Source: Bacillota bacterium (GTDB taxonomy: Bacteria > Bacillota > Sulfobacillia > RBS10-35 > JAJYVN01). From it: a stretch of DNA of 47,063 bases. The notes under the pieces are model-generated. The model did not search any database. It saw only the letters and a program-made list of their open reading frames with translations, and was not told where the DNA came from. The translations under genes and the position numbers were made by a program. Of this stretch, positions 50-40,411 are shown one piece after another; the stretch's first letter is position 1; each line of letters opens with the position of its first letter. Location of the stretch: contig JAJZXK010000014.1 of NCBI GenBank assembly GCA_021806565.1, positions 1 through 47,063 on the forward strand, in the 5' to 3' direction.

Positions 50-99
50 CCCACGGCTGAAGCCGGGGGCATCTACGGGTCGCGCCGGGATTTGGGTGA
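50..99 (-). mobile_element. palindromic IS200/IS605-end-like element, copy A
   Basis: These 50 bases are identical, in reverse complement, to 40086-40135. The left part (about 50-70) is a hairpin, CCC-A-CGGCT / AGCCG-GGG, with one bulged base. It resembles the right-end hairpin that follows tnpB-type genes in IS200/IS605 elements. No transposase is visible; one could lie beyond the left edge, or this could be a transposase-less derivative. The flanks differ from those of the other copies, which makes 50-99 the best estimate of the mobile unit. Confidence 0.7.
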
Positions 100-39031: not shown

Positions 39032-39061
39032 ATGAGGCGGACATGATGATTGGATGAGGCG
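39032..39061. promoter_or_regulatory. direct repeat upstream of the PepSY gene
   Basis: ATGAGGCG occurs at 39032-39039 and 39054-39061, 22 bases apart (two helical turns), 47-76 bases upstream of the PepSY start. The spacing suits a dimeric, direct-repeat-binding regulator such as an OmpR-type protein. No sequence-specific evidence links it to the regulator at 22630. Confidence 0.3.
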
Positions 39062-40411
39062 ACGGGCATGGGCGGCAGCGACAGCCGGGGCCCGTCAACC
39101 GGCAAGACGTTCAAGCTCACCCTCACCGACCCGAAGGTCGTGAAGGCACTCAACTGGATGAACAGTTGGACCAAGACCTACCCGGTGGCAACGATCAGCG
39201 CCGCGACCTCCGCCTACGGCACCAACACTAACGCCCCGCTGATCACGGGCCAGATGCCCATGATCATCAACGGCAACTGGATGCTGGGCGTGTATGCCCA
39301 GTACGCCAAGACCCTTCCCTACGCCGTCGTCCCGGTTCCCGCCCCCGCCGGGCGCAAGCCGACCAGTTGGTGCGGCGGTTTCGGCTATACGGTGCCCAAG
39401 GGTGCCAAACACGTGGCGGAGAGCTGGAAGTTCCTCGAGTACTTTTGCAACGAGTCGAACTCGGTGGAGATGGCCGCCAAGACGACGACCTTTCCGGCAT
39501 GGCTCAGCGGCCTACACAGCAAGCAGATCAGCGGCATCCCCCACATCAAGACCTTCCTCGACCTCGTGCCGGGCGCCCACGGCCGGCCGGTGACCCCCGC
39601 CGCCCAAGTGCTGTGGACCGAACTCACCACCAACGCCACCAACGACGCCTTATACGGCAAGCTCTCCCCGATTCAGGCGCTGGCAAAGGCGCAGAAGAAG
39701 GTCGACGCCGTGACGAAGATCCACTTCGTGCTCTACCTCACGAACACGCTCCACTTTGCGTTACTCAGCACGATCGGGGCCTGCATCTCCGCCCCGGTGG
39801 TCGGGTATGGCTTTTCCAAGTTGGAGTGGCCGGGGAGGGACGCGCTCTTTTTCGCCACACTTGCCCAGCTGATGCTTCCGGGCCAGGTGACCCTGGTACC
39901 CCTCTTCCTGCTTTTCCGGCACTTCGGCTGGGTCGGCACGTACAAACCCCTGATCATTCCCGCCTACTTCGGCAGCCCGTTGTTCATCTTCTTGGCGCGG
40001 CAATTCTACCGGCAGGTGCCCAACGAGATCACGGAAGCAGCCCGTATCGACGGGGCCGGCGAGTTGCGGATCTTCGCCGGCATCGTCACCCAAATCCCGG
40101 CGCGACCCGTAGATGCCCCCGGCTTCAGCCGTGGGGTCATGACTCCGCTGATCCTGCCCGCGATCGCCACGATCGCCCTGTTCCAATTCGTGGGCGCCTG
40201 GGGCGACTTCCTCAGGCCGCTGATCTACATCTCCCGCGCCAGCCTCTACGCGCTTTCGATCGGCCTGACCCGCTTCCAAACAACCTACAGCACCGATTGG
40301 CAGTGGCTGATGGCCGGAGCGACGCTGTTCACCATCCCGATCCTGTTCCTGTACTTCTTCGTGCAGAAGACGTTCATCAAGGGCATCCAATTCTCCGGGC
40401 TGGTGGGCTGA
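39050..40411 (+). pseudogene. fused remnant: solute-binding protein C-half joined in frame to MalG-type permease C-half
   Basis: One open frame of 453 codons. Codons 1-225 match the C-terminal half of a sugar-binding protein (TDPKVVKALNWMNSW, MPMIINGNWMLG, GGFGYTVPKGAKHVAESWKFLEYF). From about codon 226 the sequence becomes a MalG-type permease beginning at its second segment (YLTNTLHFALLSTIGA), with GYGFSKLEWPGRDALFF and EAARIDGAGELRIF. The binding-protein signal peptide and N-lobe, the whole MalF-type permease and the MalG N-terminus are missing, as expected from two large deletions. Palindromic copy C interrupts the EAA loop in frame. The TTG start has no ribosome site. No ATPase is nearby. 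Very probably non-functional, but the open frame is unusually intact. Confidence 0.75.
40086..40135 (+). mobile_element. palindromic IS200/IS605-end-like element, copy C, inserted in frame in a permease
   Basis: Exact 50-base match (opposite strand) to 50-99. The hairpin GGCTTCAGCCG with CCC/GGG arms lies at 40115-40135. GTCA flanks it on both sides (40085-40088 and 40136-40139), 51 bases apart. It adds TQIPARPVDAPGFSRGV to the protein inside the EAA loop, between the conserved Gly and the following hydrophobic Pro-containing segment. Removing 51 or 54 bases restores a normal-looking loop (IFAGIV joined to TPLILPAIATIALF) without changing frame. Confidence 0.8.

Follow-up and report, generated by a model that had tools for sequence, protein, structure and literature searches.

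How does a short repeat come to lie inside a protein-coding frame without closing it? The question is raised by a MalG-type ABC permease frame near one end of a 47,063-nucleotide stretch of DNA from a Bacillota bacterium (assembly GCA_021806565.1, contig JAJZXK010000014.1), here called the window. A preliminary description, made from the letters of the window, saw a palindromic insert in the EAA loop of this permease and took it for a transposase-less, stop-free element of IS200/IS605 descent, one of a family that adds peptides to proteins. We asked what the insert is, where it comes from and why it can be read through.

The insert and its boundaries

An insert is indeed present inside the permease frame and in the EAA loop, and it adds residues while keeping the frame. 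The limits first given to it, 50 bases and 17-18 residues, have to be moved by about four bases: it is 54 bp long. In the window TCAC is followed by CCAAATCCCGGCGCGACCCGTAGATGCCCCCGGCTTCAGCCGTGGGGTCATGAC and then by TCCGCTGATC (Table 1). Read as 18 codons, the 54 bp give QIPARPVDAPGFSRGVMT, and the ORF reads GIVT-QIPARPVDAPGFSRGVMT-PLILPA; when the flanks are joined without the insert, GIVT is followed directly by PLILPA. The insertion point in the EAA loop thus falls between EAARIDGAGELRIFAGIVT and P. Homologous permeases were compared by tblastn, namely the genome's own paralogue on contig C97 and others from the same family, order and class; all 16 lack a net 18 residues at the insertion point or a few residues away. 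Their lack of these residues rules out that the insert is a conserved part of the permease family. A genome_contigs scan with the permease gave a single homologue, 44% identical and from a Chthonomonadaceae MAG.

The two GTCA that had been described on either side of the insert are not a duplication. The left GTCA consists of one host base and the TCA of the target TCAC, and the right one lies inside the right end (RE) of an element, GGGGTCATGAC, which rules out a target duplication by way of this pair. The hairpin end is real, although its stability is not remarkable: the folding energy is no stronger than that of shuffles of the same GC-rich sequence (z = -1.0). We therefore dropped stability as evidence and let the copies carry the case. 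At 54 bp the insert has no room for a transposase gene and carries none, as had been said of it. Rfam and tRNA scans over the window gave no matches.

Table 1. Features of the locus, with positions in the window
Feature	Position	Strand	Basis or remark
Further left end (LE) of the same element	50..99	-	Contig start; continues outside the window into tnpB
Host ORF: C-terminal half of a solute-binding protein fused to an N-terminally incomplete MalG-type permease	39050..40411	+	Pfam SBP_bac_8 (positions 148-272 of 279) and BPD_transp_1; comparison with the intact C97 operon
Target tetranucleotide TCAC	40086..40089	+	5' of the element; stands before every left end of this type
Putative 54-bp terminal-only remnant of a tnpB (IS1341-type) element, LE 5' part and RE 3' part	40090..40143	+	LE copies, RE copies, gap in homologous permeases
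LE-only part, through the diagnostic C in GGCTTC	40090..40126	+	Base is C in all LE copies, T in all RE copies
AGCCGTGGG, 9 nt, common to LE and RE, contains the join	40127..40135	+	Comparison of LE and RE copies
GTCATGAC, RE-derived right terminus, contains the second GTCA	40136..40143	+	Invariant in nearly all RE copies; missing from LE at the same place

Two ends of one element

We searched the window's own genome (4.0 Mb in 213 contigs, 70% GC), counting search matches as copies. The left 46-50 bp of the insert are found again, with perfect or near-perfect identity, at 20 further places, and its last 27 bp, with mismatches allowed, at 27 more; recurrence of both parts far exceeds chance. 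The search gave 40 places, 20 of them of one type in which TCAC is followed directly by CCAAATCCCGGCGCGACCCGTAGATGCCCCCGGCTTCAGCCGTGGGACAGGGGCGCGCC.... All 20 of these left ends lie no more than about 300 bp from a contig end and, given enough contig, mostly continue into an ORF, MKQVVQVKLLADPEQTVALLRTMQAFNAACNIVAEVAF.... A search with the pattern of the right end finds 28 places, which are 2 LE-RE hybrids and 26 right ends, 23 of the latter at contig ends. Typically the order is the tnpB stop, GGTGATTGGCAAGCCCCCGGCTTTAGCCGTGGGGTCATGAC and then unrelated flanks, with the end GGGGTCATGAC invariant. Every left end of this type has TCAC on its 5' side and unrelated sequence beyond, and no consensus follows the right end. 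Taken with their positions at contig ends, the two sets represent opposite ends of a single multi-copy element, which interrupts the assembly. One further left end, at C47:164085-164129 of this genome (G000), breaks off mid-hairpin close to the contig end (CTTCAGCC, then CTCATCG...).

Further copies, expected from the outset, were thus found in number (about 20 left and 26 right ends), and descent from the IS200/IS605 family with insertion 3' of a tetranucleotide holds as well. The idea of an independent stop-free family fares otherwise: of the roughly 22 places where this left end occurs, just 2 hold the 54-bp form, and the rest are ends of longer tnpB elements.

What was the longer element? 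Its tnpB begins some 50 bp past the left-end hairpin and closes next to the right end. Among the protein fragments there are matches to TIGR01765, a model of transposase N-termini (E 5e-5), and zinc-ribbon ends of TnpB/Cas12 type, FRCVDCGFGGPADHIAAINIGRRG, match PF07282 (E 2e-4) and guided_TnpB (E 0.002); all of these scores lie below the curated cut-offs, as expected of fragments. No TnpA gene appears to lie between LE and RE, where fragments of tnpB stand instead. Because tnpB comes first after LE and adjoins RE at its other end, the type would be IS1341. The parent, pieced together from fragments of which none is an intact full-length copy, thus appears to be a tnpB-only (IS1341-type) member of the IS200/IS605 family. 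As to a TnpA with matching ends, IS200-type TnpA genes lie at C53:98-451 and C176:8784; their left-end hairpin is almost the same as the one in the tnpB element, and they are a possible source of transposase in trans.

The build of the 54 bp becomes clear when the end hairpins are compared. LE has GCCCCCGGCTTCAGCCGTGGG-ACAG and RE has GCCCCCGGCTTTAGCCGTGGG-GTCATGAC, so that the palindromes near the two termini form a direct repeat, GCCCCCGGCTT[C/T]AGCCGTGGG, with identity at 20 of 21 positions. The one diagnostic base is C in all left ends and T in all right ends. The window copy has C and then, after AGCCGTGGG, the RE terminus; it is therefore LE on its left and RE on its right, with the join inside AGCCGTGGG. 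A second hybrid of the same build lies at C175:37188-37241 on the minus strand. It has CAT in the hairpin in place of CGT, the single base at which the two 54-bp hybrids differ, and its flanks are different.

From these comparisons, the 54 bp are very probably a terminal-only remnant of a tnpB-only IS200/IS605-family element whose core was deleted between the palindromes, a deletion read from the hybrid sequence rather than from a before-and-after pair at the locus. The permease gene would first have received a full-length copy 3' of TCAC. One palindrome and all intervening DNA may then have been lost through replication slippage or strand annealing between the palindromes; a join within a tract common to both ends is the expected outcome of either. 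The product, as its sequence shows, is the 5' part of LE joined to the 3' part of RE; it retains one hairpin and both outer cleavage sites but not the sequence that lies 5' of the hairpin on the RE side. In the two hybrids the join falls in one and the same 9-nt tract, a picture that one deletion followed by later transposition would also give.

The same tnpB element has suffered other internal deletions in this genome. At C147:44394 the middle of tnpB is joined to RE, at C199:34675 the deletion runs between two ACAG, at C127:12282 the loss lies inside tnpB, and C183 holds a decayed copy. Breakpoints differ among the deleted copies on C147, C127 and C199, and one of these is an in-frame loss inside tnpB.

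Host genes and reading frame

The permease is a permease, as first described, though not in an ordinary frame: the ORF is a fusion of two truncated genes. Near 39735 the binding-protein half continues in frame into the MalG-type permease, either by deletion fusion or by an assembly join. On C97 the intact paralogue comes with a MalF gene, and its MalG is longer by roughly 75 N-terminal residues, which include the first membrane segment; compared with that operon, the window permease has no adjoining MalF. ORF 39050-40411 is a probable pseudogene remnant. The absence of the N-terminal part and of the partner subunit speaks against a working permease that tolerates the insert, and because the host is a remnant the locus permits no conclusion on whether EAA loops tolerate insertions.

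A macrodomain ORF (...SLKFT-QIPARPVDAPGFSHGVMT-L, then the stop) carries the second hybrid at its 3' end and finishes one codon past it. This ORF (C175:37184-37720) matches the N-terminal half of DarG, at positions 2-147 of the 329 in the profile, and has no DarT beside it. Annotated homologues have 301-362 residues, and the one in Meiothermus adjoins a DUF4433 gene, which we take to be DarT. The C-terminal half of the DarG-like homologues was not found near the C175 gene by tblastn; the homologue in the related genome G004 is cut by a contig end and does not cover the second insertion site. By these comparisons, both hosts of the 54-bp form are truncated genes, the one an SBP-MalG fusion and the other a DarG-like protein that lacks its C-terminal half.

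Why, then, do both copies read in frame? We computed the phase of TCAC in 234 GC3-typical genes called in 447 kb of the window genome. On the sense strand of these genes 648 of 790 TCAC (82%) stand in phase xTC-ACx. When the 54-mer is placed 3' of TCAC in both orientations, 1490 of 1563 genic sites (95%) keep an open frame, and the commonest product, at 648 of 1563 (41%), is exactly QIPARPVDAPGFSRGV. In-frame reading is thus accounted for, in this computation, by a length of 54 bp and by codon usage that puts most TCAC in xTC-ACx; the sole luck in the open frame is that 54 is a multiple of three. Both copies have the same reading, QIPARPVDAPGFS[R/H]GVMT, which is unsurprising at a chance of 0.17 (0.41 squared). 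The LE sequence and the placement of TCAC in GC-rich codons yield the peptide as a by-product. Copy number and the phase calculation together rule out a separate peptide-adding family. At 70% GC a TCAC target and a 54-bp remnant keep 95% of genic frames open, so that selection is not needed for in-frame readings, and automatic annotation will score the residues encoded by the remnant as protein.

Alternatives and known systems

Could the 54-bp form itself be mobile? It might be a single-hairpin miniature of the PATE kind, moved by an IS200-type TnpA in trans and inserted here at its present length. An intact TnpA of this type stands beside a very similar hairpin on C53, and the two copies here are one base apart. 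A related element occurs in the sister genus G001. There contig C158 carries a short LE/RE hybrid that is built differently, and a 331-bp tnpB-deleted form is present (C100:1813-2143 and C491:2954-3283) whose two closest copies are 96-100% identical in different flanks; two more of its copies are diverged. Such near-identity in different flanks points to movement, in this family, of longer tnpB-less forms that keep both hairpins, and the 331-bp form would be a non-autonomous mobile form. In most other relatives, all those searched being from genera other than that of the window genome, hairpin matches are right ends of related elements or other IS ends. Six strain-specific copies of 52 bp in Haloquadratum also led their authors to suggest mobility (PMC3119063). 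Against this stand the two copies here versus about 20 of the long form, and the single hairpin left to a TnpA dimer that binds one at each end (PMC7290912); the long mobile forms of G001 retain both. We consider insertion as a ready-made 54-bp element unlikely, and slightly less probable still the extended proposal that a single-hairpin form mobile through TnpA in trans would, given the dominant codon phase of TCAC, insert 18 codons in frame almost universally.

In the IS608 model of transposition a TnpA dimer binds a hairpin at each end. On that general model a remnant without the RE-side sequence 5' of its hairpin is probably immobile; the single hairpin and the mere two copies lead us to favour deletion in place over mobility. 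An assembler that passed straight from the LE of a full-length element to its RE could have produced a hybrid too, since the element breaks most contigs and the palindrome is common to both ends. The longest exact match between LE and RE is 11 nt, however, below usual assembly word lengths, and two independent hybrids have different flanks; we regard such an artefact as very improbable. Least probable of all is a peptide-adding element kept in frame by selection, as proposed for Rickettsia palindromic elements. The shared frame of the two copies, one within the permease ORF and one at the 3' end of the macrodomain ORF, would suit it, but the same openness at 95% of genic TCAC sites and the exact peptide at 41% arise without selection, and both host genes are truncated. 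Core deletion in place remains our reading of the 54 bp.

Several known systems bear comparison. Rickettsia palindromic elements, to which the insert had been likened, are about 150 bp long and occur in many copies in many working genes (PMC10969869). They share with it a palindromic repeat read in frame within protein genes, and differ in copy number, size and origin: here there are 54 bp, two copies, truncated hosts and a known parent IS, rather than many in-frame copies in unrelated working genes, and that type is ruled out. GTAG REPs with RAYT transposases likewise have GTAG two bases ahead of a short hairpin, and some lie inside genes (PMC3733652); unlike them, the present sequence is neither abundant nor a separate repeat but the end of a tnpB element. 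The copies are IS ends, and the intact C53 TnpA reaches 146 bits with the IS200 model and 32 bits with the RAYT model, for which the cut-off is 80; this excludes a REP/RAYT pair. Closer is a PATE-like, ends-only IS605 sequence of 271 nt in Halanaerobium hydrogeniformans (PMC7290912). There too IS605 ends occur without a transposase gene, in single or few copies; that sequence retains the complete RE and a portion of tnpB, whereas here both palindromes are merged into one.

The nearest parallel is Haloquadratum walsbyi, in which HqIRS46 and ISHwa23 lost their cores to become terminal-only PATEs (PMC3119063). The tnpB-only ISHwa23, 1500 bp long, gave rise to a 52-bp PATE by deletion between near-terminal palindromes, and occasional movement was suggested (PMC3119063). 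The features of a PATE recur in our insert: its near-terminal palindrome matches the LE and RE copies of an IS605-type element of its own genome; it has neither terminal inverted repeats nor a target duplication, homologues continuing plainly across the site; and the diagnostic base, the RE terminus and the join in AGCCGTGGG indicate outer termini joined by deletion between palindromes. As in Haloquadratum (PMC3119063), a tnpB-only IS605-type core would have been lost between near-terminal palindromes acting as direct repeats, leaving a remnant of 52-54 bp with its outer termini, 3' of a short oligonucleotide and without target duplication. Unlike those PATEs (PMC3119063), ours lies in a bacterium of 70% GC, in two copies only, with palindromes identical at 20 of 21 positions rather than fully, and in frame inside an ORF. 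Loss of the core, as described for haloarchaeal IS605-type elements, thus has a counterpart in a bacterium, one that illustrates how a tnpB element may shrink to a short readable scar. The insert adds a new instance to a known type of genomic scar; it does not represent a new protein-adding element.
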